From positions 1 through 33,366 of the IMG/VR virus record IMGVR_UViG_3300017530_000065: a stretch of DNA of 33,366 nt; one strand, given 5' to 3'. Under the pieces are notes generated by a model. The model did not search any database and was not told where the DNA came from. It saw nothing but the letters and a program-made list of their open reading frames with translations. A program made the translations under genes and the position numbers. Below are positions 1,184 through 32,863 of the stretch, in pieces. Each line of letters starts with the position of its first letter. Positions within the stretch are counted from its first letter, which is position 1. Source of the stretch: a virus.

Positions 1184-1351
1184 GTGAAGCGAAATGAACA
1201 TGACAAACAGTGTGGGTGCGATGACTGCGTACAGCGATGCGCTTGCGGATGCGGGGGAACATTCTACTATTGCCACAGGCGCAATGATGCGAATACTAAA
1301 CCAGCAGCGAAAGACGGCCGTAAGAGACGCGGTGAGGCTGGAACTGACTAA
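1184..1351 (+). CDS. cysteine-rich zinc-binding candidate, 55 aa (GTG start)
   Basis: This frame encodes a short protein with CGCDDC, CACGCGG and YYCHRR, a cysteine pattern that looks like a small zinc ribbon and fits the many other CxxC proteins of this phage. The only in-frame start is GTG at 1184. It lies just 2 nt after AGGAG, too close for a standard site. It overlaps in another frame with the longer ORF at 1194-1499, and only one is likely to be real. The patterned cysteines favour this frame; length and ATG favour the other. Confidence 0.4.
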   Translation: MKRNEHDKQCGCDDCVQRCACGCGGTFYYCHRRNDANTKPAAKDGRKRRGEAGTD

Positions 1352-1499
1352 CCGCATGAATGCAAGGATAGCGACCGGCACGGCATGGCAGCGTGACCGA
1401 CCACGACCCCAACTTGCATACCTGACAAACTCTATGGCGAACGCACGGCGACACGAGAAGCGATGCGTGGCAATGAGTTTGCACGGCGCAACCTCTTAG
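1194..1499 (+). CDS. hypothetical protein, 101 aa (alternative to the 1184 ORF)
   Basis: This ORF starts with ATG 12 nt after GAGGAG. It encodes a basic, Ala/Met/Arg-rich helical protein (MMRILNQQRKTAVRDAVRLE) ending right before the terminator hairpin at 1517. No family is recognised. Because a cysteine-rich ORF occupies the first half in another frame, the coding status is uncertain. The fit of its stop to the terminator supports it. Confidence 0.4.
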   Translation: MNMTNSVGAMTAYSDALADAGEHSTIATGAMMRILNQQRKTAVRDAVRLELTNRMNARIATGTAWQRDRPRPQLAYLTNSMANARRHEKRCVAMSLHGATS

Positions 1500-1516
1500 A
1501 TTTTTTGTTTCCCTTT

Positions 1517-1544
1517 AGAAACCCCCGATTCGTCGGGGGTTTCT
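1517..1544 (+). terminator. hairpin terminator before the packaging genes
   Basis: AGAAACCCCCGA (1517-1528) pairs perfectly with 1533-1544 around a TTCG tetraloop, giving a 12-bp stem. The downstream sequence (GCTTTGTGCT) has only a weak T-run. It separates the left-end small genes from the terminase promoter a few bases later. Confidence 0.75.
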
Positions 1545-1550
1545 GCTTTG

Positions 1551-1559
1551 TGCTACAAT
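1551..1559 (+). promoter_or_regulatory. extended -10 promoter for the packaging operon
   Basis: TGC-TACAAT (1551-1559) is an extended -10 element in the context TTGTGCTACAATTA, closely matching TGTGGTACAAT at 19773 and TGTGGTATAAT at 25323. No good -35 is seen. The expected start of transcription (about 1566) is only about 3 nt before the ATG at 1569, so the transcript would be nearly leaderless. Confidence 0.5.
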
Positions 1560-1568
1560 TACCGCATT

Positions 1569-1895: not shown

Positions 1896-3069
1896 AGCCC
1901 CAACACTTCACGCCAGCCAAAATCGCGTAAGAAAATCAACGGCACGGTTCAAGGTTTTGGCCTGCGGGCGGCGCTGGGGCAAGACCCGCCTCGGCGCTGT
2001 TCTTTGCTTGGCAACGGCCGTAAACGGCGGCCGGGCGTGGTGGGTAGCCCCGACTTACAAGATGTCGAATGTCGGTTGGCGTATCATCAAGTCGCTATGT
2101 ATCCAAATACCGGGAACGAAAATCAACAAAGCAGAGCGGCGCATCATGCTCCCCAACGGCGGCGAAATCAGCATCCGCAGTGCGGATCATCCTGACTCCC
2201 TACGCGGCGAGTCGCTAGACTTTGTGGTGCTAGACGAATGTGCTTTTATGCAGTCCAGTGCATGGCATGAGGCGTTACGGCCGTCACTTTCAGACCGCGT
2301 CGGCAAGGCAATGTTCATAAGCACCCCGGCGGGGCGCGGATGGTTTTGGCAGCTATTCCAACAGGCGGCCGATGGCGGGGAGTATGAACGTTGGCAGCTA
2401 CCAACCTCAGATAATCCGTACATCCTAGATTCTGAAATCGAGGCGGCGTATAAGACGCTGCCTGAGCGCATCTTCCAACAGGAATATGAAGCGATGTTTT
2501 TAGATGATGCGGGCGGCGTTTTTCGCAACGTCCGGGAATGTGCGACGGCCGTACCGCTCAATAAGGCAGATGGCAACCGGCAATATATCGGTGGCGTGGA
2601 CGTAGCGACAATGGTGGACTTTACCGTCGTGTCAGTGCTAGATGTGGAATCAAAAGAGATGGTATATATGGACAGATTCAACCGGGTAGAATACCCTGTG
2701 CTTGAAGACCGGATCAATGCCGTGTATAACAAATTCAACATGACGGCGATTGTGGTAGAATCAAACAGCATCGGCCGTCCGGTGATTGACCACATGAGGC
2801 AGCGCGGCATGACTGTGCTACCATTTACCACGACAAGCGCAACCAAGACGGCCATCATTCAGAAGTTACAAACAGCATTTGAGCATGGCAATATCACAAT
2901 ACTAAATGACAGGATATTGGTAAATGAACTGTTGGCATTTGAGGGAAAACAGATGGCGACGCATTGGAAATACGCCGCACCGGCAGGATTACATGATGAC
3001 TGCGTTATGTCTCTGGCGATTGCTTGGGATGCAGTTCAGGCTAACAACGAGGTAAAAGTGTTATGGTAG
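1876..3069 (+). CDS. terL: terminase large subunit
   Basis: This is the ATP-driven DNA packaging motor and nuclease. The N-terminal ATPase has a Walker A GRRWGKT (residues 31-37), Walker B VVLDE (117-121) and a coupling motif STPAGRG. The C-terminal RNase-H-like nuclease has the acidic residues in GGVDVATMVDF, VVESNS and HDDCVMSLA. At 397 residues it is slightly short but within the family range. The gene overlaps the small subunit at its start and the portal gene at its end, so packaging genes are translationally coupled. The assignment is firm; the packaging type (cos or headful) cannot be told from the sequence. Confidence 0.95.
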   Translation: MTAITIKAPTLHASQNRVRKSTARFKVLACGRRWGKTRLGAVLCLATAVNGGRAWWVAPTYKMSNVGWRIIKSLCIQIPGTKINKAERRIMLPNGGEISIRSADHPDSLRGESLDFVVLDECAFMQSSAWHEALRPSLSDRVGKAMFISTPAGRGWFWQLFQQAADGGEYERWQLPTSDNPYILDSEIEAAYKTLPERIFQQEYEAMFLDDAGGVFRNVRECATAVPLNKADGNRQYIGGVDVATMVDFTVVSVLDVESKEMVYMDRFNRVEYPVLEDRINAVYNKFNMTAIVVESNSIGRPVIDHMRQRGMTVLPFTTTSATKTAIIQKLQTAFEHGNITILNDRILVNELLAFEGKQMATHWKYAAPAGLHDDCVMSLAIAWDAVQANNEVKVLW

Positions 3070-4415
3070 ATTATGAAAACGAAGGGCTGAAACCAGGTAT
3101 ACATTTATTTCAAGGCGAGCATCATCTAAAAACGATTGACCACGCCTCATTTTTTGGCAGCGGTATTGATTTTCACAACATCGGCGGGGTCATTTCAGAG
3201 TCGGTGTGGGAGCAATTCGCTAGGGCTGCATGGGTACGCGCCGCCATCGTCACCCGGCAAGATTACATGAGCCAAATACACACTGAATGGGATGGGGTAG
3301 GGGATGAGATAGTTGCCGGCATTAGCCTCATGGACTTGCCGCGCATTGACACGGCGCTGCAACTTTTCGGATGGGCTTTCTTCCACAAAGAACGGTTGGA
3401 AAACGGCCGGGTTATCAATCATCGCTGGCTAAACCCGGACTTTATGATACCGCAATCAGATACCGCCTTTCCCGGTGGATTCCACCTGTACAATTATTCA
3501 ACCAGCGAGATTATCAAGGATGCCGGGGCAATGATACCGGATCACGACTTGCTTATCATTCGGCAGGACGGCGTGAGAGAGGCGTACCCGATGTCATCGG
3601 CACAAGTGGCCGCGTCGCTATCTAGCCAAATAGTGATTGGCATTGCGGAGACAATGGATTCATTCTATGACACTAACGCGCTGCCGGTTGTGGCCGTGAT
3701 AGTGCCGCCAGAGACACCGCAAACCAGCGTCGAAGCAGCGGCAAATCGTTTTCGTGAAATCTTCCAGTTTAGACGGCCGTTGTCTGGCAACAAAACAATA
3801 GGCTTGTCAGGCGACGTAAAAATAGAAACAATATCATTTTCGCCTGACGATTTGCAGATGGGCGAGCTTTCCGATATGCAAATCAACGCTATCCTTGCAT
3901 CGCATCAGGTGTCGCCAGCGTTGATAAACAGAGACGTTAACCGGGCAGAACTTGAGTTTAGACAAATAGAAATGGTAATAAGAATGGGGGCGCGCCTGAA
4001 GCTAATTGAACACATCATCAATAATGATACCGACTGGAACTCGGTAGGTAATCCACACTTGACCCACAACATCAAAAAGCATGAGCTGATGCAAACCCAG
4101 AACTTGGCGACCGCGCAATCCTTGCAAATGTTGACGGGCGGCCAGCCGATAATGACGGTTGACGAGGCACGGGAAACGTTAGAGCTTGAACCAATGCCAG
4201 AGACGATGATACCGGAACAATCAGATCATGAAACGGCCGTGCGCTCATTTGAAATGGCAGTGGTGAATGATGAGACGGCAAAGGCGCGGCGGTATTACAA
4301 AAAGAACGGGGCGAAGGCAAGGCCGTTTACTAGCAGCGTCTTAACGTCTCATGCGTTAGAACATATCAAATCGGAGGCAACCGGCGACTCGCCGGATTAC
4401 TTTCGTAGCTACTAA
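3063..4415 (+). CDS. portal protein
   Basis: The portal is the dodecameric ring at one capsid vertex, through which DNA is packed and to which the neck attaches. The 450-residue protein shows the family layout: an N-terminal wing, a conserved FGWAFFHKERL segment, a tyrosine-rich strand region, then a long helical region (MSSAQVAASLSSQIVIGIAETMDSFYDTNALP) and a crown helix (HQVSPALINRDVNRAELEFRQ). It follows terminase with a 7-bp overlap. The next gene's frame begins inside its 3' end, one base out of phase. Confidence 0.9.
   Translation: MVDYENEGLKPGIHLFQGEHHLKTIDHASFFGSGIDFHNIGGVISESVWEQFARAAWVRAAIVTRQDYMSQIHTEWDGVGDEIVAGISLMDLPRIDTALQLFGWAFFHKERLENGRVINHRWLNPDFMIPQSDTAFPGGFHLYNYSTSEIIKDAGAMIPDHDLLIIRQDGVREAYPMSSAQVAASLSSQIVIGIAETMDSFYDTNALPVVAVIVPPETPQTSVEAAANRFREIFQFRRPLSGNKTIGLSGDVKIETISFSPDDLQMGELSDMQINAILASHQVSPALINRDVNRAELEFRQIEMVIRMGARLKLIEHIINNDTDWNSVGNPHLTHNIKKHELMQTQNLATAQSLQMLTGGQPIMTVDEARETLELEPMPETMIPEQSDHETAVRSFEMAVVNDETAKARRYYKKNGAKARPFTSSVLTSHALEHIKSEATGDSPDYFRSY
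4381..4395 (+). promoter_or_regulatory. small hairpin at portal/MuF junction
   Basis: CCGGCG-ACT-CGCCGG forms a 6-bp GC-rich hairpin that starts 3 nt after a GGAGG (4373-4377). It ends directly before an ATT codon (4396) in the frame of the next gene. It may help position ribosomes on a non-standard start or stimulate a frameshift. This is a structural inference only. Confidence 0.35.
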
Positions 4416-5368: not shown

Positions 5369-7147
5369 ATGCACGAAATCAAAATACTAGACCAAGATGA
5401 TGAGACTATCACACTAGGAGGTTTTGCCGTCGTGTTTGACGGCCGCGATTTGGAGGGGGATACGTTCACAAAAGACACCGATTTTATGCTCGACAACTTT
5501 GCAGATAATCAGCCGGTCATGATAGACCATACGCAGCCGGTGATTGTCGAGCATAACGGAAAGACGTTCAAGCTTACTGGCGTTCCGATGAAAGTAGGAC
5601 ACGTCATAGAGGTAACGCCTCAGGATGTTGGCTTGTACGTCAAGCTTCTTATAGAAAAGGCGGGCAACTATTGGGGCATCGTGGACGGCATGATGTCAAC
5701 GAAACGATTGGGGCTGTCATCTGGCAGCGTATCGCATCTAGTTAGAAAGGACGGTGGCGTTATTAAAACGTGGCCGATTGCCGAAGTATCATTAACGCTC
5801 ACGCCAGCAGAGCCGCGAACGGCCGTGCTAGGTGTAGAGCCTATCAAGATTGTTTATGAAGATGGCGACCTGATAAAAGGGATCATTAAGGCAGCGGGGA
5901 ACGCTGCGGATGATGCAGACTCAGAGGCCACAATATTGGATTCAGGAGAATTAACAATGTCAAACGAAGAACAGGAAGTAAAAGAAGAGGAAGTCCAGGA
6001 TGAGGAAGCGTCAACAGTTGACAATATTGTTGATTATTCTAAGTTCGTGGACGAAATCAAGGCATTGCGTCTTGATATTGAGAAGATATCGAAGCCGGTA
6101 AACAAGATTACAACCACGCACATCAAGACCACAAAGACGGCCGCCAACGAAAACCCTGTTGTTAAAGCCAACGCCGATTATGCTAATTGGGTACGCAATG
6201 GCGGAAACGGCCGTTATCAGTTAGAGCTTTTCGGAAATGAGGTGAAAGCACCGGCTAAATATGCTTGGGGTTTTGACGCTGACGGTAAGCAGACGAAGGC
6301 GATAAATATCACTACCCCGACCGAAGGACAGGAAGCAGTGCCGATTGGTCATCATCGGGAAATCATCCAACAGATGGAAGAAATCGGGCCCCTATACCAA
6401 CGCTTGGGAGTTCGCAATATTCCAGGAAAGGGTACGACGGTCAACGTACCAACGCAGGCGGCGGGCGCTGGTTTGATGACTCCCGCAGCAACCGAAAGCG
6501 CCACTGCTGTTGATAATGACCCGGTGTTCGCACAGGTGGCTATGACGCTATTGAGCTACCGGACAAAGGTTGCCGTGACATACGAAATTCTCAATGATGA
6601 GGATTCAATGTTACTCTCATTCCTGTCTGGATTCGCGGCGCGGGCAATGGTGAACACTCACAACAGCCTGCTAAATGCGGAGGTCGCAGCCAATGGTACA
6701 TCTTATGGCACAACGGCCGCAAATACCGGATTCGCTGCTGGTGAAATTGAGGCGGTGGCTGGTAATGACACTTTAGCGCCGTACATTGACGACCAGGGGA
6801 TGACGTGGGTGATGCGTAACAGCACACATATGAACATCCTGTCAATTGACGGAAATCGTTTTTATGCTGACGATACGGCTGGCGGTATGGTAGGCACACG
6901 CAACCGAATGTTGCTAGATTACCCCGTCACTCGTTCCAACTTTGTCCCTGCCATCGCCACGACTGCCAAAACGGTTTTGCTCGGAAATTGGGCATTCCTG
7001 GCCGTGAGACATGCACCGACGTTTACCGTCCTGCGTGACCCGTACAGCCGCGCCGAAAACGGGGAAGTCGTGTTCCATTACTTCATGCGTACCGTGTACG
7101 CAGTGTTGCAAGCGGACGCTGTCGGTTACATAGAAATGGCGATTTAG
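5369..7147 (+). CDS. prohead protease-major capsid fusion protein
   Basis: The 592-residue reading frame joins two head genes that are usually separate. Residues 1 to about 170 match a HK97-type prohead protease, with likely catalytic His54 (MIDHTQP) and Ser117/118 (GLSSGS) and the typical AEVSLTLTPAEPRT strand. Residues about 197-260 form an acidic, coiled, scaffold-like delta region. Residues about 300-592 are a HK97-fold capsid domain (HREIIQQMEEIGPLYQRLGV; VTYEILNDED; C-terminal FRTVYAVLQADA-like region). The ATG at 5369 has no good ribosome-binding site. A strong internal start at 5957 could make the capsid chain alone. Confidence 0.88.
   Translation: MHEIKILDQDDETITLGGFAVVFDGRDLEGDTFTKDTDFMLDNFADNQPVMIDHTQPVIVEHNGKTFKLTGVPMKVGHVIEVTPQDVGLYVKLLIEKAGNYWGIVDGMMSTKRLGLSSGSVSHLVRKDGGVIKTWPIAEVSLTLTPAEPRTAVLGVEPIKIVYEDGDLIKGIIKAAGNAADDADSEATILDSGELTMSNEEQEVKEEEVQDEEASTVDNIVDYSKFVDEIKALRLDIEKISKPVNKITTTHIKTTKTAANENPVVKANADYANWVRNGGNGRYQLELFGNEVKAPAKYAWGFDADGKQTKAINITTPTEGQEAVPIGHHREIIQQMEEIGPLYQRLGVRNIPGKGTTVNVPTQAAGAGLMTPAATESATAVDNDPVFAQVAMTLLSYRTKVAVTYEILNDEDSMLLSFLSGFAARAMVNTHNSLLNAEVAANGTSYGTTAANTGFAAGEIEAVAGNDTLAPYIDDQGMTWVMRNSTHMNILSIDGNRFYADDTAGGMVGTRNRMLLDYPVTRSNFVPAIATTAKTVLLGNWAFLAVRHAPTFTVLRDPYSRAENGEVVFHYFMRTVYAVLQADAVGYIEMAI
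5945..5959 (+). promoter_or_regulatory. internal ribosome-binding site and start for capsid protein
   Basis: AGGAG at 5945-5949 is placed 7 nt before an in-frame ATG at 5957 (MSNEEQEV...), in the linker between the protease and capsid domains. Initiation here would give a 396-residue scaffold-plus-capsid chain in excess over the protease fusion, comparable in logic to nested head genes such as lambda C/Nu3. Confidence 0.65.
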
Positions 7148-7830: not shown

Positions 7831-8312
7831 TGGCCGTAAAAGTAATCAATCTTGACGAGAAGATCGCGGGGCTAGAAGCGTTGGCAAACCTGCGGACGTG
7901 GGTAAAACGGCCGTTGAAACGAGCCAACCAATTGCTAATGGAAGAGGCGCGAGATTACCCGACCAAAGACCCCGGCGCGTTTACCGCATTAGCCACGCCT
8001 GGACAGAAGCGGGCATATTGGGCAAAGGTTGGCAGCGGCGAGATTCAGCACGGCGCTAGCGGCTACGTTAGGACAAACAAGCTTCGAGATAGCTGGCAAG
8101 AGATGAAAATCAAACTAGCGGCCGACCGGGCAAAGTCTGGCATAGAATCGAACCTGCCGGGAAATCAGTACGTGATGGGCAAGAGACAACAGCCATTTCA
8201 TGCCAAATCCGGTTGGCTAACGGATGAAAAGTTAGCCAGTGAAAACGAGCGGGAAGTAGACTTCTTTTTTCAAGATGAAATAGCCAATTTCAAGCGAGGG
8301 AAGCTGGCATGA
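7830..8312 (+). CDS. HK97 gp10-like neck/tail completion protein
   Basis: The 160-residue protein shows pattern features of the gp10-like neck family. There is a basic helix near the N-terminus (LRTWVKRPLKRANQLLMEEAR), a conserved segment on substrate-like residues (GYVRTNKLRDSWQEMK) and a C-terminal amphipathic region. It would join the connector to the tail tube. Gene order (connector, gp10-like, tail terminator, tube) supports this. It overlaps the next gene by 4 bp. Confidence 0.65.
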   Translation: MAVKVINLDEKIAGLEALANLRTWVKRPLKRANQLLMEEARDYPTKDPGAFTALATPGQKRAYWAKVGSGEIQHGASGYVRTNKLRDSWQEMKIKLAADRAKSGIESNLPGNQYVMGKRQQPFHAKSGWLTDEKLASENEREVDFFFQDEIANFKRGKLA

Positions 8313-8806
8313 CTCAGGTACAAGATGCGGTGCTGATTGCCAAGACTATTATCGAAGGACTCACGCCAGCCGCGCCTGGCCTTCCACTTACGGCCGTATA
8401 CATCTATCCTGATGAGTACGACACAATGCCGAAGAAGCCCGCCGTTACCTTTGCCACCATTGGCAGATTACGCGCTAATGCCGCCGACATTTGGCAGCAA
8501 GAGGAAGTGTGTACATATATGCACTATTGGCTACTACGGATTATGATATTCCTGTCAGTCGGTGAAACAAAAGACCCGTCTAAAATCATGGCGAATTCTA
8601 TGCTGCTAGAATCGGATTGGGAACACATCGTTATTGAAGCGTTAGCAAATGACCGGACATTGACCGGAACGGCCGTAGCCATTGGAGAGTCAACCGGTGA
8701 CGGTTGGTCAATCGCTTCTCCTGATTTGGAGTGGCGACAATGGAATCAGCAGCCATACTGGGCAATGACATTCGATGTACCAGTAATGCAGGAACATACA
8801 TTTTAA
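8309..8806 (+). CDS. tail terminator candidate
   Basis: This 165-residue alpha/beta protein lies between the gp10-like gene and the tail tube gene, the usual place of the tail terminator that caps the tube. Features are an N-terminal helix (VQDAVLIAKTIIEGL), a central hydrophobic beta segment (HYWLLRIMIFLSV) and a C-terminal strand region ending in WAMTFDVPVMQEHTF. That matches the family's pattern, but no diagnostic motif is known to me. ATGA overlap with the gene before it. Confidence 0.55.
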   Translation: MTQVQDAVLIAKTIIEGLTPAAPGLPLTAVYIYPDEYDTMPKKPAVTFATIGRLRANAADIWQQEEVCTYMHYWLLRIMIFLSVGETKDPSKIMANSMLLESDWEHIVIEALANDRTLTGTAVAIGESTGDGWSIASPDLEWRQWNQQPYWAMTFDVPVMQEHTF

Positions 8807-9547: not shown

Positions 9548-9849
9548 TTCTGGACGTGGCCGGGTGGTATGACGGCACATGTCCACAGCCTCCGATGCTA
9601 AAACTTCATTCCAGAATCAAGAGATGGGGCGACCCCTACGGCGGCGGCTGGCTAGACTGGCCTGCCGGACACATTGATAAGCTAACCATCGTTGGTAACG
9701 TGTCTGAGGCGTACGGCGCATTCAAAAGGTACACAGGCAAGGAAACATTTGACAAGGCTTATCCCGGCGCGTGGCAGATCGTCACGGCCGTAATGACGAT
9801 GCGGGAAGAGGCCGGACTAAATTGGTTTACGGGGTTGCGAGATGGGTAA
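9538..9849 (+). CDS. tail assembly chaperone, frameshift extension (T-like)
   Basis: This reading frame has no plausible start of its own: only GTG at 9556, without a ribosome-binding site. It is entered by the -1 slip at 9538-9544. After the slip it reads LILDVAGWYDG and continues 101 residues, rich in Trp and Gly, to 9849. It overlaps the tape measure start by 8 bp. The extension should recruit the tape measure protein during tail assembly. Confidence 0.8.
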   Translation, partial: PKLILDVAGWYDGTCPQPPMLKLHSRIKRWGDPYGGGWLDWPAGHIDKLTIVGNVSEAYGAFKRYTGKETFDKAYPGAWQIVTAVMTMREEAGLNWFTGLRDG

Positions 9850-17110: not shown

Positions 17111-17484
17111 AAAGAGCCCCCATCGTCTTGCTCCTATCTCTAATTACGGCCGTCGTCTTGCTGGCGAGTCGCCCGGCGGCGGCTGGTTTGTGCGTTGGCT
17201 GTGATACGGCCGTGCCTGACCCAACGCCAGACCCAACGCCAGACCCGACGCCGCCGCAGAAAACGCCAACAGCGACAGGTACATTTGCGCCGACAGCGAC
17301 GGCAACCGCAGAGCCTACGCTAACGCCAGACCCGACGGCTACGGCCACAGGCACGGCTACGCAATCACCCACAGCGACGTACACGCCAACAGCACAAAAC
17401 GCCTGGCTGGTTTATGTGCCTATTTGGCTAGGTTGCCCGCCGGGTATCACGGTTGAATTGTGCCGCGAAACCATGCGGCCGTGA
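17107..17484 (+). CDS. secreted protein with Pro/Thr-rich linker
   Basis: The 125-residue protein begins with a signal peptide (MKRAPIVLLLSLITAVVLLASRPAAAG), then CVGC, then about 70 residues of low-complexity PDPTPDPTP and TATATAEPT linker. It ends in a short Trp/Cys segment (LVYVPIWLGCPP). Such linkers are typical of secreted Chloroflexota proteins. It overlaps the holin and the hydrolase genes, so it is part of a lysis or exit cassette. Function unknown; a spanin-like or envelope-tethering role is possible. Confidence 0.55.
   Translation: MKRAPIVLLLSLITAVVLLASRPAAAGLCVGCDTAVPDPTPDPTPDPTPPQKTPTATGTFAPTATATAEPTLTPDPTATATGTATQSPTATYTPTAQNAWLVYVPIWLGCPPGITVELCRETMRP
17217..17254 (+). repeat. 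12-nt tandem repeat coding PDPT
   Basis: Three imperfect copies of a CCAACGCCAGAC-like unit encode the PDPTPDPTPDPTP linker. This is a small slippage-prone repeat inside the secreted protein gene. Confidence 0.6.
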
Positions 17485-18317: not shown

Positions 18318-18779
18318 ATGACAGTCTGCTTAATGGTCTTCGGCATAATCGGATTTTATTGTCAGCTTGGCGCGGCTGAAATCGGCGAGTGTTTTCTTAA
18401 TCCGCATCCTGATACCGTTACCTGTGTGGTGGATGCTGACGCGCTGCCAATACGGCCGTACAATTACAACCCGGAGCTAGGCGGCATTAACTGCTACCAG
18501 GACACGTGCGAGACGTTAGGCGACGGAACTTTAGTGGCTGATGCTTGGGGATGGGCAGCCGCCTGCGTTCCCGGCTGGTACGGCCGTAAGGTGCTGCTGG
18601 TTGACGAAGGGGAGATGTGGGAATGCAGAGACAACGGCGGCGCAATTGTGCCACGCTACGGCGAAGTATACAGCCCGGCGGACGGGTTTATATCGCTGTG
18701 GTTTCTACCGATTGACCTGCTTCTAAGAGAAGCGCCGCATTACGCGCTAGAATTACTTGATTGGCAGTTTGTGGAATAG
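18318..18779 (+). CDS. secreted Cys-rich 3D/RlpA-like domain protein
   Basis: The 153-residue protein starts with a hydrophobic leader (VCLMVFGIIGFYCQLGAAEIG). Residues about 75-125 (GTLVADAWGWAAACVPGWYGRKVLLVDEG...RDNGGAIV) resemble a 3D or RlpA-type double-psi barrel, found in cell-wall lytic or glycan-binding proteins. Several cysteines suggest disulfides outside the cytoplasm. The name is a pattern-based guess. It is the last gene of the rightward lysis cluster. Confidence 0.5.
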   Translation: MTVCLMVFGIIGFYCQLGAAEIGECFLNPHPDTVTCVVDADALPIRPYNYNPELGGINCYQDTCETLGDGTLVADAWGWAAACVPGWYGRKVLLVDEGEMWECRDNGGAIVPRYGEVYSPADGFISLWFLPIDLLLREAPHYALELLDWQFVE

Positions 18780-19763: not shown

Positions 19764-19772
19764 CCCCGCCAA

Positions 19773-19783
19773 TGTGGTACAAT
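19773..19783 (+). promoter_or_regulatory. extended -10 promoter for the 19820 gene
   Basis: TGTGG-TACAAT (19773-19783) precedes AAGGAGG and the ATG at 19820; expected start about 19790. It shares the TGTGSTAYAAT pattern with 1549 and 25323. No clear -35 is seen. Confidence 0.6.
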
Positions 19784-19819
19784 TATACTCTTAGCAATCA
19801 ACCGCAAAAAGGAGGATTT

Positions 19820-21783: not shown

Positions 21784-22785
21784 TTAAGTTTCCTTGCGTT
21801 CCACACACCAATCAAATATGGAAACGGCCGTTTCCGTCTTTAGTACCGTTTTGTACAGCAGCGCCTTTTCGCCAAGCTCCGGCCATAGTTTCATGGCGCT
21901 TATTGCATGTTGGCGGACGTTGTACAGGCCGGTCAACACAAGCCTGTCAGCTACGAAACCGGCCTTCACCGGGTCGCTCTCTGCAACCTGTTGCCTAAGT
22001 TCTTCATTTGTGTACGATGGTTTCTCAGGCTCGTAATCATGACCATATGCGCCGGAAATGTTTTCATCAAGAACCTCCTTTACCATTTTATCAAGTTCTT
22101 TTTCTACCATTGCCACCGCGCTTTTCGGATGTGGTGTCAATTCCTCAAATGTCGTCTCGGCTGGCTTGGTGGTCGGGGTTGGTTCAGGTTCGGCAATCTC
22201 GCCGGTTACAATGTCAATAGGCACATCGGCTTGGCTCATTTCCTCCTGCGTATAAACGCCCGACAAGTCGGCAGGAAACGCTTTGCGTAATGCGCCAGAC
22301 TCGGCACACTTTGCCAGCATTACATGAGGAAACTTTTGCCACATACTGCCCTTCTTGTCACCTGGATAATATTCGTTCCAGTATGCAGAGTTGGAAAAGG
22401 CGACGCGCTGACCTGATACCAGTTTCCACACCGTGACGCTGGCTTTCGCCGGTGCATCGAATGTAGTCTGATAGCGTGTCTGTGATATTTTACCGTCAAA
22501 TACCGCCTCGTCATTTCCTGCATACTTGCCCGTCCGGTCTGCTACCAGACGATAGCCATCAATGCCGGTAATGATGGACATTTTCGGACCCGCTTTCGTG
22601 CTGTATTTTTGGAAATAGATTTGCTTTGCCAGCGGGTCAAGGCCGGTTTTTTGACACTGATGCAAGAATAATTCTAGCTCATCATCCGTTGCTCCGATGG
22701 CAACCGTGCGCTTAATTAGTTGCACCTTGCTGTCGTCAAATGTGATAATGTCTGTATTTTCCGTTGTCGTCAATTCGTTACTCAT
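21784..22785 (-). CDS. bet: single-strand annealing protein (Bet/RecT family)
   Basis: The 333-residue protein shows the Bet/RecT signature: RTVAIGATDDELELFLHQCQKTGLDPLAKQIYF near the N-terminus, IITGIDGYRLVADRTGKYAG, and FPHVMLAKCAESGALRKAFPADLSGVY. It anneals single-stranded DNA ends and supports recombination-dependent replication. The start at 22785 is chosen by AAAGGTGAAACGAAAA; an ORF extending to 22848 is rejected because the zinc-ribbon gene overlaps there. The C-terminus is acidic and disordered before the last helical part. No partner exonuclease of the Exo or RecE type is recognised nearby. Confidence 0.85.
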   Translation of the reverse strand: MSNELTTTENTDIITFDDSKVQLIKRTVAIGATDDELELFLHQCQKTGLDPLAKQIYFQKYSTKAGPKMSIITGIDGYRLVADRTGKYAGNDEAVFDGKISQTRYQTTFDAPAKASVTVWKLVSGQRVAFSNSAYWNEYYPGDKKGSMWQKFPHVMLAKCAESGALRKAFPADLSGVYTQEEMSQADVPIDIVTGEIAEPEPTPTTKPAETTFEELTPHPKSAVAMVEKELDKMVKEVLDENISGAYGHDYEPEKPSYTNEELRQQVAESDPVKAGFVADRLVLTGLYNVRQHAISAMKLWPELGEKALLYKTVLKTETAVSIFDWCVERKET

Positions 22786-22900
22786 TTTTCGTTTCACCTT
22801 TCCAGATTGACCGGCACTCCTCGCAGAGCTGCCGGTCTTCATACTCACAATAAGTTAACGGCCGTCTCTGGCAGCATCCGTCACATTTGTTATTTTTCAT
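22778..22900 (-). CDS. zinc-ribbon micro-protein, 40 aa
   Basis: The product (MKNNKCDGCCQRRPLTYCEY...LCEECRSIW) has CxxC-C and CEEC cysteine pairs, a compact zinc-binding pattern. It is coupled at both ends: its ATG overlaps the stop of the 22900-23139 gene, and its tail overlaps the start of the annealing protein. This gene includes one ACGGCCGT copy (22858). A DNA or RNA contact is likely but unproven. Confidence 0.65.
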   Translation of the reverse strand: MKNNKCDGCCQRRPLTYCEYEDRQLCEECRSIWKGETKNE

Positions 22901-24220: not shown

Positions 24221-24461
24221 AGCGCTCAGACGTGGCATTACGGCCGTCACACATCCAACCTGGAAGCTCGGCCACCTTCACATTGAACGGTTTGGCAACG
24301 GCATTATCATACACGGCCAGACTAACGCAGATGGAAAACAATCATGGCTGAGGAGGCCATATGACCACACCGACGGCAAACCGTCATGGCATGAGTATGA
24401 TGACGATTACACAGGCCATGATGGGTATATGGAATATCGGCATGAGGACGAAACGGTATGA
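24207..24461 (+). CDS. hypothetical protein, 84 aa, His/Asp/Tyr-rich
   Basis: The protein overlaps the preceding gene by 14 bp. Its C-terminal half is dense in Asp, His and Tyr (HTDGKPSWHEYDDDYTGHDGYMEYRHEDE), which may bind metal. The N-terminal part contains an amphipathic strand-helix pattern. No known family. Confidence 0.55.
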   Translation: MTIPEALRRGITAVTHPTWKLGHLHIERFGNGIIIHGQTNADGKQSWLRRPYDHTDGKPSWHEYDDDYTGHDGYMEYRHEDETV

Positions 24462-24837: not shown

Positions 24838-25273
24838 CATGAGCCGTTACCCGGTCGACTGGCCGCAAATCCGTGATCGCGTCCTGAAACGCGCCGGGGG
24901 TAGCGCAGCGGATTTGCGCATAGGCGCGGCCTGTGAGTGGTGCGGTGTGATGAACTACTCCGTCGGCTACCGCGACTCAGGCGGCGAACTTCACGCGCTA
25001 GACAGAGTGTTTCCCTCTTACCGCAAGGCGACGAGGGCAGCGATCAAAAATAACCAGCTTGCTGGCAAATCAGGCAAGCACGGCCGTTACATCGTTATCG
25101 TGCTGACTATCGCTCATATACACGATCCGGACCCGGCCAATTGCGCTGATGACAATTTGGCAGCGCTTTGCCAGCAGTGCCACAACCGGCACGACTCTAA
25201 GATGAGGCAGCGCAACCGGGCGGCGGGGAAAGCCCGGGCAGCGAAAGCGGCCGGGCAGATGACGCTACTATAG
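24827..25273 (+). CDS. HNH endonuclease
   Basis: The GTG at 24827 is 9 nt after AAGGAGG; the ATG at 24839 is further away and less favoured. The 148-residue protein has CEWC (36/39), an HNH core with H97-I-H99, N110-L and C115-x2-C118-H119...H122, i.e. a zinc-bound HNH domain. A basic C-terminal tail follows (KMRQRNRAAGKARAAKAAG). HNH nucleases in phages act in packaging, homing or host DNA damage. Here it lies in the early region rather than by the terminase. Confidence 0.8.
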   Translation: MPIDMSRYPVDWPQIRDRVLKRAGGSAADLRIGAACEWCGVMNYSVGYRDSGGELHALDRVFPSYRKATRAAIKNNQLAGKSGKHGRYIVIVLTIAHIHDPDPANCADDNLAALCQQCHNRHDSKMRQRNRAAGKARAAKAAGQMTLL

Positions 25274-25801: not shown

Positions 25802-27225
25802 GCGAAACAATGAATAAAGACTACGATGAACAACCACTTGACCATGACGGCCATGCCGCCTGTGTCCTGATTAAATACCCGGATATGTACAGGCACACCG
25901 GGGAGCGCGGTTGGCTTGTTTACCGTAATGGATACTGGCAAACGAAGGGGGCTGAAGCATCGGTAACGAGAGCGATTAAAAACGTTCTTAGGGAGCGTGA
26001 GCAACAAATAATAAAAGACCCGTCAATTGAAAACGAAAAGGCGCGATCATCTATGCGGCGCATGTGCAAGGCAAACAACGGTACGGTGATCGGCGTTCGT
26101 GCCATGATTAAATCGTTTGAAGATTGTGAGTGCAGCATCCTAGACTTTGACAATAATCCCAAACTTATTAACTGCAAAAATGGCGTTGTGAACCTTGAAA
26201 CCGGTAAACTTGCGGCACATTCTGCTTTACTAATGTTTACGTATCGCCTTAATGTTGATTACGAAAAAGGTGCAAAAAACGAGACGTGGGATACGTTCCT
26301 GGCTACCATCGGGATGGATGATGACACGCTCAATTACCTGCGGATATTGTCGGGATACTGCCTTACAGGACTCACAAGAGAAGAATTGATGTTCTACTTA
26401 TACGGTGAGACAAGAACCGGTAAAGGTACATTTACGAACGCGCTGCTAGGGGTTCTTGGACTATACGGGATGGGTATCAATTTTAGGACGTTCACAGTTA
26501 GGCGGGATGGGGATACGCAGAATTTCGACCTGGCAATACTATCACAAAAACGCTTCCTATCTGCCAGCGAATCAAAGCGCCATGAGCGGATAAACGCCTC
26601 AGTGTTTAAGCAGGTGACGGGCGGTGATCCGATATTTGCAGCCTACAAAGGTAAAGATGGATTCTCGTTTATTCCGCAGTGGAAGATTATGCTATCGTCT
26701 AATTATCCTCTTAATGCTGACCCGATGGATTCAGCAGTTTGGGCAAGGGTTAGAGTGCTGAAATTCGGCAAGTCAAACCTGGGAAAGGAGGACAAAACGC
26801 TTAAGGCAAAGCTGGATACAGACGGGGCAAAAGAGGCCATCTTGGCATGGGCTGTAAGCGGCGCTGTTGAATGGTTTTCTGATGGTCTAAACACACCCGC
26901 AAATGTCACCGAAAACACGCACAAAATGCGCCTTGAGGTGTCCTCTGTTTTGATTTTCATAGACCAATGTTGCACACTCGGAATAGACAAAACAAGCGAT
27001 GGTAAGGCGCTCTATTCTGCCTACATAGAATGGGCAATCGGTGAGGGTTATCACAAGCCGTACGGCCGTATGTCATTCACCCAGGCACTCGAAAGACTGG
27101 GGTGTAAAAGTGCCGTCCGCAAGGTAAGTGGGAAGTCCACAAGGTACTATACAAACATAAAATTCTTAGGCGATGCCGCTGGCGATTTGTCCATCTCTAA
27201 CCGAATTGAACTGGACGTTTTTTAG
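25798..27225 (+). CDS. D5/P4-type primase-helicase
   Basis: The 475-residue protein is the C-terminal superfamily 3 helicase part of D5-like primase-helicases. It has a D5_N-like region (about residues 60-195), a Walker A GETRTGKGTF near residues 203-212 and an acidic Walker B region downstream. Sensor motifs (FKQVTGGDPI; LSSNYPL) follow, with a C-terminal winged-helix part. It unwinds DNA and, with a primase part, may start replication. The N-terminal primase is short or absent, so the host may supply primer synthesis. The adjacent downstream non-coding region is a likely origin. Confidence 0.85.
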   Translation: MSETMNKDYDEQPLDHDGHAACVLIKYPDMYRHTGERGWLVYRNGYWQTKGAEASVTRAIKNVLREREQQIIKDPSIENEKARSSMRRMCKANNGTVIGVRAMIKSFEDCECSILDFDNNPKLINCKNGVVNLETGKLAAHSALLMFTYRLNVDYEKGAKNETWDTFLATIGMDDDTLNYLRILSGYCLTGLTREELMFYLYGETRTGKGTFTNALLGVLGLYGMGINFRTFTVRRDGDTQNFDLAILSQKRFLSASESKRHERINASVFKQVTGGDPIFAAYKGKDGFSFIPQWKIMLSSNYPLNADPMDSAVWARVRVLKFGKSNLGKEDKTLKAKLDTDGAKEAILAWAVSGAVEWFSDGLNTPANVTENTHKMRLEVSSVLIFIDQCCTLGIDKTSDGKALYSAYIEWAIGEGYHKPYGRMSFTQALERLGCKSAVRKVSGKSTRYYTNIKFLGDAAGDLSISNRIELDVF

Positions 27226-28051: not shown

Positions 28052-28341
28052 TGAAAACATGTGAACGCTGTCACCTTGAAAAGAACGAAGTTGAATTTAA
28101 CACTCTTACACGATACCAGCGGCCGGTACGTGAACCATTCGCGGCCGTGTGCGTCACTTGCTACTGGAACCAGATGCGGACAACAGATAGCTGGCAGTCA
28201 GTTGTAAAGTCGGTGCGTATGCGGCTCGGATATGTTGATGCAAAAGAAGTAGGTAAGTTTGGCATATACAGCCTCGACCAATTGACACGGCCGTTTACTG
28301 ATTGGCTACTGCAATGTGGGGCGAGAGAGGAACTGATATGA
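28051..28341 (+). CDS. CxxC zinc-finger protein, 96 aa
   Basis: It has CERC (residues 4-7) and CVTC (about 34-37) with a hydrophobic helix in the C-terminal half (LDQLTRPFTDWLLQC). It resembles recruitment or small transcription-type zinc fingers. It is coupled by ATGA to the next zinc-ribbon gene. Confidence 0.6.
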   Translation: MKTCERCHLEKNEVEFNTLTRYQRPVREPFAAVCVTCYWNQMRTTDSWQSVVKSVRMRLGYVDAKEVGKFGIYSLDQLTRPFTDWLLQCGAREELI

Positions 28342-28541: not shown

Positions 28542-29375
28542 ATGAAAACAAACACTATCACTACTGGCGATTACCTGGACATTGGCGAAAACATCATACC
28601 CGGCAGCGTTGACCTCATCATGACCTCCCCGCCGTACCCCGGCCAAAAGAATGACAGCCGCGGCGTCTCGGAATGGCTAAATTGGTTTACGGCCGTATCC
28701 CGGCTCATGTATGCCAACCTGACTGCTAACGGCGTGTTAGCTCTGAACGTGGCATTCAAGCGCACCGGCGGCGGCTGGTACGACACGCGGCTCTTTACGC
28801 AGCTTGTACCGATGCTGGAAGAAACCGGCTTTAACATGATTGACATTTATCCATTCCTGAAAGCCAACCCCGCGCCGAATGGCAGCGTCGGCGTTAATTC
28901 GCGGCACGACACCCCGGCCTGGGAGCCGGTTTTTGTGATGAGCAAGGCGGCCGTTACGGCCGATTATCAATTCGAGCCGGTACGAAAACCGTACAAGCCG
29001 AAATCATTTACGGCAGATGGCAACCTATGGACAAACCGCCTCGCAAACGGCGATACGGCCGTGCCCCACCCCGGCGGCGCACGTCAACCGAATTATTTAC
29101 TCGTTTCCACGTCTGGTACTTCACGCACAGGAATGCCACGCGCTGAAGGCCAAAGTTTCCCGGTCGCAGTGCCTGAGCGTTTCATCCTTCAGCATACGCA
29201 ACCCGGCGATACCGTGCTTGACCCATTCGCTGGCGTTGGCACTACTTGCCGCGTGGCACAGACAAACGGCCGTAAATACATCGGTGTGGAACTGTTGGAG
29301 CGTGAAGCGGCAAAGGCGCGAGAGTGGCTAGATGAGCCGTTTCAGCAGTCAATTTTGGACTTTGCCAGATATTGA
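28542..29375 (+). CDS. DNA amino-methyltransferase (m4C/m6A, beta class)
   Basis: The 277-residue enzyme has the catalytic motif IV TSPPYPG near residues 28-34. SPPY is usual for N4-cytosine methylation, with N6-adenine possible. The AdoMet-binding motif I DPFAGVGTT is near residues 227-235, i.e. the beta-class order. It follows GAGGAACTGAC. It probably modifies phage DNA against host restriction. Its target sequence cannot be read directly; the ACGGCCGT palindrome is an attractive but untested candidate. Confidence 0.85.
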   Translation: MKTNTITTGDYLDIGENIIPGSVDLIMTSPPYPGQKNDSRGVSEWLNWFTAVSRLMYANLTANGVLALNVAFKRTGGGWYDTRLFTQLVPMLEETGFNMIDIYPFLKANPAPNGSVGVNSRHDTPAWEPVFVMSKAAVTADYQFEPVRKPYKPKSFTADGNLWTNRLANGDTAVPHPGGARQPNYLLVSTSGTSRTGMPRAEGQSFPVAVPERFILQHTQPGDTVLDPFAGVGTTCRVAQTNGRKYIGVELLEREAAKAREWLDEPFQQSILDFARY

Positions 29376-29990: not shown

Positions 29991-30133
29991 GTAAAAAACA
30001 CCACGTTAAAAACGGCCGTAAGTTCAGCAAAACAAAACCTTGTCGTAAGTGTGGTGGTTATGGCAATATGCTGGTTGGCAGCGAATGGCAAGACTGTCAT
30101 GTCTGTCTGGGTACTGGCGGAAAAGAACAATGA
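29987..30133 (+). CDS. DnaJ-type zinc-ribbon micro-protein, 48 aa
   Basis: The ORF starts in an ATGA overlap and ends in another. The product has CRKCGGYG and CHVCLGTGG, a DnaJ-like zinc knuckle pair, and a basic N-terminus. It includes one ACGGCCGT copy at 30012 (NGR). It resembles the 23805 protein in cysteine pattern. Confidence 0.65.
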   Translation: MSKKHHVKNGRKFSKTKPCRKCGGYGNMLVGSEWQDCHVCLGTGGKEQ

Positions 30134-30573
30134 GCGACATTACCCGCTGGCTCGACACCTACACAACGCAAGTTTCCCCGCAGACCAAAAAGCAGCTAGA
30201 TTACTACGTCGGTAGCAACCATCTGATTTTCCCCGCGTCGTCAAAATACCAAGTCGGCGCATTCGCAAAAGCGATTGGTTGCGATGCCGCCGAATTACAC
30301 TCAGAGCTATCCCGGCGCGGTCACAAGTTTATCACGGCTAAAACGGCGCGTGTTTACGGAACGCGAATCACGACACAATACGAATATGATACCGTGACGA
30401 CGTTGCGATTTAGACATCCAACTGAAGCGGGCGTAAGCTGGATTGGTCAAGACTGCCTTGACTGTGGTGTGCGCATATTTACGGCCGTACACGGCCGTTG
30501 GTACTCATGTCAAGAATGTGGCCTGAAGTGGTCAACGAATCCTAAAACAAAATGGAGACGAAACAATGAGTAA
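30130..30573 (+). CDS. zinc-ribbon protein, 147 aa
   Basis: The ATG at 30130 overlaps the previous stop (ATGA). The N-terminal part is helical with a DNA-binding-like helix pair (YQVGAFAKAIGCDAAELHSELSRRGHKF). The C-terminal part has CLDC and CQEC cysteine pairs (about 110 and 130), a zinc ribbon. Two ACGGCCGT copies lie within 20 bases of each other (30481 and 30491). Function unknown; a primase- or transcription-accessory role is possible. Confidence 0.6.
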   Translation: MSDITRWLDTYTTQVSPQTKKQLDYYVGSNHLIFPASSKYQVGAFAKAIGCDAAELHSELSRRGHKFITAKTARVYGTRITTQYEYDTVTTLRFRHPTEAGVSWIGQDCLDCGVRIFTAVHGRWYSCQECGLKWSTNPKTKWRRNNE

Positions 30574-30817
30574 ACGAATTGAACACGACGTGGCAGCGCT
30601 AAATTTACAGGTTAGTGTTTTGGGTATCAAGCTAGAAGTAGCCGAACTGCGGCAGCAGATAGCTGCCGCAATTCCCCCCGGCGCGTCACCAAAAGAGCTT
30701 GAGATTCTTTTGGAAATTGTGCGTAGTTGCAACCACAACGACCGCACCAAAGTGATAGCCGATGACTGTGCTAGAATTATGAAAAATGAGGTTGTAGCCG
30801 TCGAGCTACCATTTTGA
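30566..30817 (+). CDS. hypothetical helical protein, 83 aa
   Basis: Preceded by AATGGAGACGAAACA. The sequence is coiled and helical (LNLQVSVLGIKLEVAELRQQIAAAI; LLEIVRSCNHNDRTKVIADDC). It could dimerise. It overlaps the 30130-30573 gene by 8 bp. No family recognised. Confidence 0.55.
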   Translation: MSKRIEHDVAALNLQVSVLGIKLEVAELRQQIAAAIPPGASPKELEILLEIVRSCNHNDRTKVIADDCARIMKNEVVAVELPF

Positions 30818-30820
30818 TTC

Positions 30821-31288
30821 ATGTCAATAACGCTTAAAGAATTTCAGGCGATGCTGCGGGGCAGCGAGGCCGTGCCAGACGTGTCTGCTACAGCAACCCG
30901 GCACGAACCAACCGCTGCACTATTCACGCAGTCCGATTTAGAGGCGACGTTTGCGGCTGAATTGTTTATTCGGCACGCTGATCTAATTCCGCAGATGCAG
31001 AGGGAGTACAGATTTAGCGGTCGAAAGTGGAGGCTGGACTTTGCATGGCCTGTTCTGGCTGGCATCGAGGTGAAGGTGGCAGTCGAAACGCATGGCATCG
31101 GCGACAGATCCGGCGGCGCTGGTCGTCACTTGCGGCCGGCTGGATTTATTGAAGATCGGAGAAAGATGAACAGCGCGGCGGTGCTTGGCTGGATAGTGCT
31201 GGAATGCACACGGCCGCAAATTGACGACGGCTCAATTTTCGACCAGTTAGTTCAGGCGCTCAAATTGAGAGGTTGGAACCAGAAATGA
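30821..31288 (+). CDS. PD-(D/E)XK-like nuclease
   Basis: The 155-residue protein carries MQREYRFSGRKWRLDFAWP, KVAVETHG and RHLRPAGFIEDRRKMNSAAVLGWIVLECT. This is the order of acidic residue, beta-hairpin and R-x-K helix found in small phage endonucleases of the Vsr/DUF559-like PD-(D/E)XK group. It may be a resolvase, repair or restriction-type nuclease, and the neighbouring C5 methyltransferase suggests a linked role. It is coupled to the methyltransferase by an ATGA overlap. Confidence 0.65.
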   Translation: MSITLKEFQAMLRGSEAVPDVSATATRHEPTAALFTQSDLEATFAAELFIRHADLIPQMQREYRFSGRKWRLDFAWPVLAGIEVKVAVETHGIGDRSGGAGRHLRPAGFIEDRRKMNSAAVLGWIVLECTRPQIDDGSIFDQLVQALKLRGWNQK

Positions 31289-31968
31289 TACTGCTTGACT
31301 TATTCTGCGGCGCTGGCGGCTGTTCCGTCGGCTACTCACGCGCCGGTTTTGATGTGGTCGGCGTGGACATGCACTCACAGGAAAACTACCCATTCGGATT
31401 CATGCAAATGGATGCACTCGACGCATTGCGGAAACTTATAGCCGGTGAAGGTTTGGAATTCTCAGACGGCCGTATTATTGACCTGGCTGATATTTCCGTG
31501 ATTGCGGCAAGCCCGCCTTGCCAGAAATACAGTGTGGTGGCGGGGCTGGCGAGCGATACTAAAACGGCGGTTGACCTGGTTGCACCTGTGCGAGAATTGC
31601 TAATTGAAACCGGCAAAACTTACGTTATTGAAAACGTCCCCGGAGCGCCATTTGTCGGCGCTCCGCTTCTTCTATGTGGAACAATGTTCGATTTACGCGT
31701 TCGACGGCATCGGTATTTTGAAAATAACGCGGGCTTGTGGTTGCCTCCGCAGACGTGCAACCATTGGAGCAAGATTAACGAGAATGGATTCTGTACAATG
31801 TTTGGAAAGGGGGCATCTAAAGAAAAAGGCGGCAACAAGGCGGCATGGCAGGCAGCGTCAGGCATTGACTGGATGATAGTTCCGGAAATGAGCCAGGCGA
31901 TACCGCCAGCCTATACAGAGTACATCGGCGGCAAACTGATAGAAATGGTGAAATGTGAAACGGCTTAG
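31285..31968 (+). CDS. C5-cytosine DNA methyltransferase
   Basis: The ATG at 31285 overlaps the upstream stop; a TTG at 31273 is less likely. The 227-residue enzyme has motif I LDLFCGAGG (residues 4-12), the catalytic PPCQ (77-80), ENV (116-118), a RRHRYFEN motif VIII and a C-terminal YIGGKL motif X region. It is shorter than typical enzymes, so its target-recognition domain is small. It methylates cytosine, plausibly to protect phage DNA. Its target sequence is unknown. Confidence 0.85.
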   Translation: MILLDLFCGAGGCSVGYSRAGFDVVGVDMHSQENYPFGFMQMDALDALRKLIAGEGLEFSDGRIIDLADISVIAASPPCQKYSVVAGLASDTKTAVDLVAPVRELLIETGKTYVIENVPGAPFVGAPLLLCGTMFDLRVRRHRYFENNAGLWLPPQTCNHWSKINENGFCTMFGKGASKEKGGNKAAWQAASGIDWMIVPEMSQAIPPAYTEYIGGKLIEMVKCETA

Positions 31969-32863
31969 CTTGCTGGCTCTTCTACTTCTCGCCGCCTGTG
32001 GCGACACTTACACGCCGCCGCCTGCCAACCCGGCCAGCGCCAATGTTGCCGCTGTTGCTACACTGACTGCCGCCGCCAACAGCATACAGGCGACTGCCGC
32101 CGCCAATAGCATACAGGCGACGGCCGTGTCACAACAGGCCACCGCAACCGCTGCCAGCATCCAAGCCACACAACAGGCCGAAACTGAAGCTACTGCTACA
32201 GTTCTAAGTGCGCTCAGCATTGTGGCCGTTTATTCAACTCAGACCGCCGTGGCGATAATTACAGACCGACAGATTGTAGACAGTGAAGCGACGGCCGTTG
32301 CCATACTCAGGAATCAAAACCGGCAGGAATCGGCCGACAATTTCTGGCTTTATGTCAGCATTATGATTCTAGTTGGCTTGGCGATGGCGCTTTTACTTAT
32401 CGGAAAAGTTACGACAATCGCTATATGGAGATGGCAAACACGACCTGACTTGTTGGAAGATGAAAGTGGAAGAGCCATTGCTCATCGTTCAGATTACAAG
32501 CCGGTTCGTGGCCGCGTTACCGTTCCACCCGCGCCAACCACGCAACCCCAACGAAACGGCAGTCCTGTCTGGCTCCAGACCCAGAACGGCGCAACCCGCG
32601 CAAACTTCGCGCCTATGAGCCGTGAGGAAGCAACGGCCGTGTCTAGTTGGCTAAACGCAGTGAGCATGTCCGTTGTTGAATTTAACCGCGATGGCGCGGC
32701 CGTATACAACATCGGCCACCCTCGCGCCGACGGCGTGATAGACTTGGCGTTGTCATCAGGCTACGCCACGAAAGACGGCGGCCGCTCTGCCCCCGTTGTC
32801 CCCGCCGTAAACCTCGTTGAATTTCAAGATATGCTATTTCCAAATCAGCTTCAAAACTCGTGA
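31955..32863 (+). CDS. phage-encoded lipoprotein with membrane segment
   Basis: GTG at 31955 opens a signal peptide with lipobox LLLAAC (Cys15). Ala/Thr-rich repeats follow (about residues 25-85, SIQATAA units), then a transmembrane span (about 130-150) and a C-terminal soluble part. A lipoprotein in the early region is typical of superinfection-exclusion or surface-blocking factors, but this role is inferred only. Two ACGGCCGT copies lie in the repeat and linker part (32120 and 32291). Confidence 0.65.
   Translation: MKRLSLLALLLLAACGDTYTPPPANPASANVAAVATLTAAANSIQATAAANSIQATAVSQQATATAASIQATQQAETEATATVLSALSIVAVYSTQTAVAIITDRQIVDSEATAVAILRNQNRQESADNFWLYVSIMILVGLAMALLLIGKVTTIAIWRWQTRPDLLEDESGRAIAHRSDYKPVRGRVTVPPAPTTQPQRNGSPVWLQTQNGATRANFAPMSREEATAVSSWLNAVSMSVVEFNRDGAAVYNIGHPRADGVIDLALSSGYATKDGGRSAPVVPAVNLVEFQDMLFPNQLQNS
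32066..32119 (+). repeat. two 27-nt tandem repeats in the lipoprotein gene
   Basis: Two copies differing by one base (AAC/AAT) encode TAAANSIQA units; further diverged copies follow. The array ends directly at an ACGGCCGT palindrome (32120). Confidence 0.75.

Follow-up and report, generated by a model that had tools for sequence, protein, structure and literature searches.

An octameric palindrome crowded through a phage genome

The stretch of DNA analyzed here (hereinafter the window) comprises all 33,366 nucleotides, positions 1 to 33,366, of the IMG/VR virus record IMGVR_UViG_3300017530_000065, a phage contig with genes for a terminase, a portal protein, a capsid protein, RecT, a D5-like primase/helicase and two DNA methyltransferases (Table 1). 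Dispersed along it are 41 exact copies of the 8-bp palindrome ACGGCCGT (the first at 1314-1321, the last at 32633-32640), against 0.50 expected from base composition alone (order 0); this reproduces the count, coordinates and chance expectation of an earlier note made from the sequence, which had likened the word to the highly iterated palindrome (HIP) HIP1 of cyanobacteria. The runner-up 8-bp palindrome occurs three times. Under Markov models of order 1 to 4, the expectation ranges from 0.67 to 9.4, the higher orders absorbing ACGGCCGT because most of the word is already inside the model. Synonymous codons were shuffled within genes in a manner that preserves every protein and the codon usage of each gene; over 500 trials this returned 4.1 ± 1.8 copies with a maximum of 10, versus 38 observed, and shuffling the order of codons returned 0.9. 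The copies are distributed over the three codon frames as 17, 11 and 7, and six more lie outside the called genes. The claim that coding cannot explain the word is thus upheld by the frames, the non-genic copies and the codon shuffles; with a shuffled-codon null that reaches 10 at most and not tens, the enrichment stands.

The density in the window is 1.2 per kb, and its observed-to-expected ratio of about 80 equals that of the two bacterial genomes G012 and G014 described below. The hexameric core CGGCCG occurs 81 times versus 8 expected (runner-up 6-bp palindrome, 16 copies), and of its 40 copies outside ACGGCCGT most retain one of the two outer letters. The gaps that had been pointed out in the tape-measure and fibre genes and in the first 1.3 kb do not hold up as a feature, the spacing in the window being unremarkable (p = 0.84 for the largest gap, of 2,609 bases, and p = 0.19 for the absence of copies from the first 1.3 kb).

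Abundance in Chloroflexota genomes and in unrelated phages

We scanned one genome per species from 84,980 bacteria and archaea for a pattern of three close ACGGCCGT words. Among the matches listed, the dense ones were metagenome-assembled genomes (MAGs) of Chloroflexota, including the Anaerolineae CHL1, ACE_CHL11, bin10092 and S016_13, the Ardenticatenaceae CFX1, and the Chloroflexi CFX4, CFX8 and BJ8; high-GC actinobacteria gave chance matches. Thirteen of the 15 MAGs among the matches listed possess 6,466-15,176 copies each (reversed control word, 64-459), and the other two are G019 with 1,727 and a Roseiflexaceae MAG (G022) with only 52. Counts in 396 genomes of the class are bimodal, with 21 genomes above 1,000 copies and almost all of the rest below 400, some of them having none. 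Within the family of CHL1, 33 of the 52 genomes exceed 1,000. In 400 kb read from each, CFX8 (G014) and CHL1 (G012) carry 1.9 and 1.8 copies per kb, respectively (observed/expected 80-83), with genes (simple open reading frame calls) and intergenic regions at 2.0 vs 1.3 per kb in the former and 1.8 vs 1.7 in the latter. The earlier suggestion of a Chloroflexota link, along with a search of such genomes for the same over-representation, is accordingly substantiated by thousands of copies in Anaerolineae and Ardenticatenaceae MAGs.

Two further observations were made in these genomes. Certain members of the class (e.g., G041, G073, G146, G175, G260, G349 and G380) have no ACGGCCGT in 3-6 Mb (control word, 15-247) and look as if they were actively avoiding it. 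Further, a dispersed repeat of ~95 bp (L396:8888-8982 on contig 2 of G014), with inverted ends bearing ACCTGTCAGGT-like arms, is present in dozens of copies in G008, G011, G012 and G013; these are ~83-98% identical, are devoid of ACGGCCGT, and are like miniature inverted-repeat transposable elements or repetitive extragenic palindromes.

Other IMG/VR contigs are equally crowded with the word (G001, 226 copies/100 kb; G002, 227/65.5 kb; G003, 85/33.5 kb; G006, 93/40 kb), the enriched phages including the window spanning 1.2-3.7 per kb. The terminase, portal, head protease or tape-measure genes of these four contigs belong to families unlike those of the window, and the relatives of the window's terminase (L005-L032, up to 59% identical) contain one ACGGCCGT in 288 kb. 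Because unrelated tailed phages are enriched and the terminase relatives are nearly without the word, it tracks the host and not the phage lineage. Closer relatives of the phage sought by means of its capsid, RecT and methyltransferase proved to be distant ones only. With the octamer masked, the tetranucleotide use of the window best matches G012/G014 among the bacteria compared (r 0.79), and this composition supports an Anaerolineae host, short of proof. The notion of an inherited host bias, also raised earlier, agrees with both the host-wide abundance and the unrelated enriched phages.

Conservation of the sites as DNA and switching of the word

We aligned one 20-kb stretch of G014 with its orthologues (slightly more for G012), using as controls 8-mers matched for G+C and CpG. 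Against G008 (82% identity), 32 of 41 octamers are intact (78%) vs 26-28% of the controls; the corresponding figures are 21/25 vs 33% for G012, 40/46 vs 44% for G013, and 37/39 vs 64% for G011 (p from 2e-5 to 9e-11 over the four comparisons, the latter for G008). The signal fades near 74% identity, and the base immediately flanking the octamer shows no conservation in the G014 alignments. Where the amino acid is unchanged between G014 and G012, codons are kept more often inside the sites than elsewhere: CGT in 18/18 vs 28/62, GGC in 18/18 vs 186/283, GCC in 24/24 vs 270/379 and ACG in 23/24 vs 56/89. A DNA-level role, as had been proposed, is in line with this constraint, which includes synonymous positions; the conservation of the sites shows either selection or a word-protecting repair process, and the data fit both.

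One-letter variants of the word in G014 are commonest at positions 1 and 8 (9.4 and 7.9%) and rarest at positions 4 and 5 (1.1-1.6%); HIP1 shows the same profile, with deviations commonest at the outer positions (Elhai 2015, PMC4390886). Near-miss words occur at counts typical of the background, given their context. A deamination signature was considered and rejected: changes of C2 to T among the one-letter variants of G014 seem raised and come near to background after modelling of the local context. The host sites further define a wider dyad, GGNNACGGCCGTNNCC, with GG favoured at -4/-3 and CC at the mirrored positions, in all codon phases and in intergenic sites alike; G stands at -4/-3 in about 50% of host sites vs about 28% for control palindromes.

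Several family members poor in ACGGCCGT have other words in its place, mostly with the CGGCCG core kept and its outer pair changed, as read from short samples (those of G324 and G351 being too short for a call). TCGGCCGA is found 51 times per 40 kb in each of G408 and G116 (expected 1.0), GCGGCCGC 42 times in 24 kb of G201 (expected 0.7), and TGCCGGCA 41 times in 41 kb of G411 (expected 2.5; 3,665 in the whole genome, where it had been counted as the control word). CGGCCG is enriched in G424, G298, G019 and G224 with the outer pair not fixed. In cyanobacteria, the alternates around CGATCG are GCGATCGC and TCGATCGA (PMC4390886). A scan for phages rich in TCGGCCGA gave chance matches among the matches listed. 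Elsewhere in the class, G084 (L501) has GCCGGC 145 times in 20 kb vs 22 expected, with no fixed outer pair, which is possibly another HIP-like core.

A probable host HIP and its candidate methyltransferases

Host-wide abundance, the unrelated phages, near-absence in the phage's relatives, conservation of sites and replacement of the word all support the reading of ACGGCCGT as a HIP of the family to which the phage's host belongs (Anaerolineae, Chloroflexota), the phage having drifted or been selected to the host word; we hold this to be very probable. A host factor would act on CGGCCG plus the flanking base pair, such that the word is seldom lost from the chromosome or from phages replicating beside it, and the outer A/T pair would constitute a second layer of specificity, the part that switches between species. 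As to the form of this factor, we tentatively prefer a mark set by an orphan DNA methyltransferase and read by strand-directed repair or end resection, along the lines of the methyltransferase-plus-repair model that Elhai proposed for HIP1 (PMC4390886).

The candidate for this role is an orphan 658-aa enzyme remotely like DUF1156 proteins (G012:C10:161120-163093), with motif I preceding motif IV (TDPPYFDSVQYSDLAAFF) and with zinc-ribbon cysteines, which scores 76 bits against the DUF1156 anti-phage model (NF042963; cut-off 1000). It is present in 40 of the 52 family genomes, and in 17/21 enriched vs 32/375 other genomes of the class (p = 1e-13, uncorrected for shared ancestry); it is missing from the genomes with bare CGGCCG and from G411. 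In the tree of the enzyme, ACGGCCGT genomes form two groups, and genomes with T..A and G..C words sit on long branches. Its gene adjoins that of the NurA nuclease in G017, G382, G316, G201, G408 and G010, six genomes that span words with A/T, T/A and G/C outer pairs. The loci with the two genes directly side by side are L556, L565, L550, L549, L522 and L552; as a separate observation, a NurA homologue adjoins other DNA methyltransferases in G011 and G014 (L358, L359). Because its association with enrichment is imperfect, we treat the DUF1156-like enzyme as a candidate and not as an identification. The MethyltransfD12 enzymes (PF02086) were set aside as the factor: near-universal, they are yet closest to DpnM/Dam, and GATC is therefore their likely target.

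Several points weigh against the host-HIP reading. The host of the window phage is putative, as neither a prophage, a closely related prophage nor a spacer proves it, and the evidence of conservation comes from about 20-25 kb of alignment, largely in one region. Searches for PF00145, PF01555, D12 and DUF1156-like enzymes recovered no CGGCCG methyltransferase common to all enriched genomes. As universal host factors, we rejected both the C5 enzymes (PF00145), which 10 of the 24 genomes above 1,000 copies lack, and the PF01555 enzymes, which give a marginal match in G012 and none in G224; G012, with its 14,867 copies of ACGGCCGT, has neither a C5 nor a strong PF01555 enzyme. The DUF1156-like enzyme is missing from the strongly enriched G020 and G420, and it was rejected as a sufficient cause, occurring without CGGCCG enrichment in G097, G171, G197, G180, G219 and G101.

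Other features of the window

The nearest solved structure to the N4/N6-type methyltransferase of the window is M.PvuII (7e-16), an N4-cytosine enzyme. A gene at 18847-19650 (-) codes for a PAPS-reductase-like protein (phrog_424, 4e-36), another of which is encoded in the enriched phage contig L706. The protein encoded at 19772-21700 (+) has ~30% identity to stretches of G018 and G187 that adjoin the candidate methyltransferase and whose neighbouring genes carry an N_BRCA1_IG domain, and is also ~30% identical to a stretch of the enriched phage G001. GATC is strongly depleted in the window (44 vs 129 expected), as are CGATCG (0 vs 8) and GCATGC (0 vs 8); the depletion of GATC and GCATGC may reflect host restriction at these words, and a DpnM-like GATC methyltransferase is encoded by the likely hosts.

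Table 1. Copies of the octamer and DNA methyltransferase genes in the window
Feature	Position	Strand	Evidence
ACGGCCGT site 1	1314..1321		exact match
ACGGCCGT site 2, terminase gene	2014..2021		exact match
ACGGCCGT site 3, terminase gene	2277..2284		exact match
ACGGCCGT site 4, terminase gene	2545..2552		exact match
ACGGCCGT site 5, portal gene	3773..3780		exact match
ACGGCCGT site 6, portal gene	4233..4240		exact match
ACGGCCGT site 7, capsid gene	5819..5826		exact match
ACGGCCGT site 8, capsid gene	6207..6214		exact match
ACGGCCGT site 9	7907..7914		exact match
ACGGCCGT site 10	8390..8397		exact match
ACGGCCGT site 11	8669..8676		exact match
ACGGCCGT site 12	9784..9791		exact match
ACGGCCGT site 13	11861..11868		exact match
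ACGGCCGT site 14	12214..12221		exact match
ACGGCCGT site 15	12693..12700		exact match
ACGGCCGT site 16	13172..13179		exact match
ACGGCCGT site 17	14537..14544		exact match
ACGGCCGT site 18	17146..17153		exact match
ACGGCCGT site 19	17206..17213		exact match
ACGGCCGT site 20	18276..18283		exact match
ACGGCCGT site 21	18452..18459		exact match
ACGGCCGT site 22	18580..18587		exact match
ACGGCCGT site 23	20412..20419		exact match
ACGGCCGT site 24	20653..20660		exact match
ACGGCCGT site 25	21156..21163		exact match
ACGGCCGT site 26, recT gene	21824..21831		exact match
ACGGCCGT site 27	22858..22865		exact match
ACGGCCGT site 28	24240..24247		exact match
ACGGCCGT site 29	25080..25087		exact match
ACGGCCGT site 30, D5-like primase/helicase gene	27062..27069		exact match
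ACGGCCGT site 31	28287..28294		exact match
ACGGCCGT site 32	28689..28696		exact match
ACGGCCGT site 33	29055..29062		exact match
ACGGCCGT site 34	29266..29273		exact match
ACGGCCGT site 35	30012..30019		exact match
ACGGCCGT site 36	30481..30488		exact match
ACGGCCGT site 37	30491..30498		exact match
ACGGCCGT site 38	31466..31473		exact match
ACGGCCGT site 39	32120..32127		exact match
ACGGCCGT site 40	32291..32298		exact match
ACGGCCGT site 41	32633..32640		exact match
N4/N6-type DNA methyltransferase, considered, tie to octamer not supported	28542..29375	+	PF01555 1.8e-33
C5-type DNA methyltransferase, 231 aa, considered, tie to octamer not supported	31273..31968	+	PF00145 1.6e-8; phrog_363 2.5e-33

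Alternative explanations

A possible, if somewhat doubtful, alternative to a methyltransferase mark is that the word is useful in itself, as a chromosome-wide binding site that host and phage are both selected to carry, be it a Chi-like resection stop, a self-mark, or a nucleoid or topoisomerase site, with methylation secondary or absent. The conserved synonymous positions are consistent with this, as are the wider dyad, alike in genic and intergenic sites, and the density of phage G002 (3.65/kb in the stretch read), which surpasses that of the hosts read; the candidate methyltransferase adjoining NurA in six genomes would fit a control of resection. However, with several words in use within one family, any reader of the site must shift its specificity easily; moreover, the binding protein is hypothetical, and conservation at the flanking G/C positions does not clearly exceed background.

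We think it rather unlikely that the word is a pure epiphenomenon, made and protected by biased mismatch repair or directed mutation and functionless in host and phage. The Elhai model predicts ~1 copy per kb, conservation at fixed sites, deviations at outer positions and replacement of the word (PMC4390886), all four of which are seen here, and phages that multiply in those cells would be subject to the process too. Nevertheless, the near-misses remain within background, such that a strong ratchet converting them is not visible, and the repair factor is hypothetical.

The remaining explanations fare poorly. We give very little credence to the idea that a naturally competent host uses the word as a signal for taking up DNA, in the manner of Neisseria or Haemophilus: 1-2 copies per kb genome-wide do resemble uptake sequences, but uptake words are not known to be palindromes, phages have no obvious gain from uptake, and the words switch within a family. 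Even less credible is a phage that gathers the octamer for protection or regulation as the target of its own methyltransferases. The earlier note had suggested a tie to the two methyltransferase genes of the window; this is undercut by the enriched G001, G002, G003 and G006, which are without PF01555 (PF00145 was not searched there), by bacteria enriched genome-wide, among them G012 with its lack of a C5 or strong PF01555 enzyme, and by the consideration that self-protection would need no additional sites. Finally, an origin in chance, codon usage or assembly artefact, to which the commonest frame being phase 0 (Thr-Ala-Val) might lend something, is already refuted, its probability being practically nil in the face of the shuffles, the Markov models, the use of all frames, the intergenic sites and the 33 enriched family genomes.

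Comparison with known systems

Among known systems, the DNA uptake sequences of Neisseria and Pasteurellaceae resemble ACGGCCGT in being dense short words found genome-wide; unlike them, ACGGCCGT is palindromic, occurs in phages and varies among the species of one family. Chi sites (RecBCD/AddAB) are similarly short, GC-rich and dense, and a link to resection is possible via the NurA neighbour; however, ACGGCCGT is palindromic and hence orientation-free, and the resection link is putative. The 658-aa candidate is like the DUF1156 anti-phage (NF042963) or COG1743-type methyltransferases in the order of motifs I and IV and in its zinc-ribbon cysteines; it differs in its shorter length, its score far below the cut-off and its frequent position beside NurA. 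A more ambitious synthesis, which we regard as unlikely, is that of a second, independent HIP system combining constraint, outer-pair switching, a DUF1156-like methyltransferase with a NurA partner, and phages imitating the word to pass as self; if true, methyltransferase and NurA would together control DNA resection in a Chi-like, methylation-gated way, or else the recognition of self.

The closest parallel to the host-HIP reading is the HIP class itself, characterized by a palindromic octamer in genome-wide excess, at ~0.5-2.5 per kb, that is not codon-driven, by variants at outer positions, by alternates in relatives and by a methyltransferase specific for part of the word in each such genome. 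ACGGCCGT agrees with this class in every testable feature other than the cognate methyltransferase, for which the DUF1156-like enzyme is a candidate: its densities (1.2 per kb in the window, 1.8-1.9 in G012/G014) lie inside that range, and relatives lacking it carry TCGGCCGA, GCGGCCGC or TGCCGGCA instead. It is not HIP1 itself, the word not being GCGATCGC and the host group being Anaerolineae, not a cyanobacterium. Like HIP1 (PMC4390886), it is a GC-rich 8-bp palindrome at ~1-2 per kb with an observed-to-expected ratio of about 80, genic in all frames as well as intergenic, deviating most often at its first and last positions, and with alternates (outer G/C or T/A around CGATCG in HIP1; outer A/T, T/A or G/C around CGGCCG here). 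The HIP1-like character ascribed to it at the outset is thus corroborated by density, observed-to-expected ratio, frames, variant profile and alternates. It differs from HIP1 in its phylum and core, in a possible wider dyad (GGNN...NNCC), in being so far without a universal core-specific methyltransferase, and in being documented in several unrelated phages.

In the literature searched, we found no account of ACGGCCGT or of any HIP in Chloroflexota. What HIPs do has been a question ever since they were described in 1995, with a single phylum as the evidence. Apart from its use in assigning phage contigs to a host where a community contains these Anaerolineae, ACGGCCGT offers species with naturally switched outer pairs, measurable DNA-level constraint and host-following phages; being independent of HIP1 and built on another core, it allows methyl-directed repair, Chi-like control of resection and self-marking to be compared between phyla.

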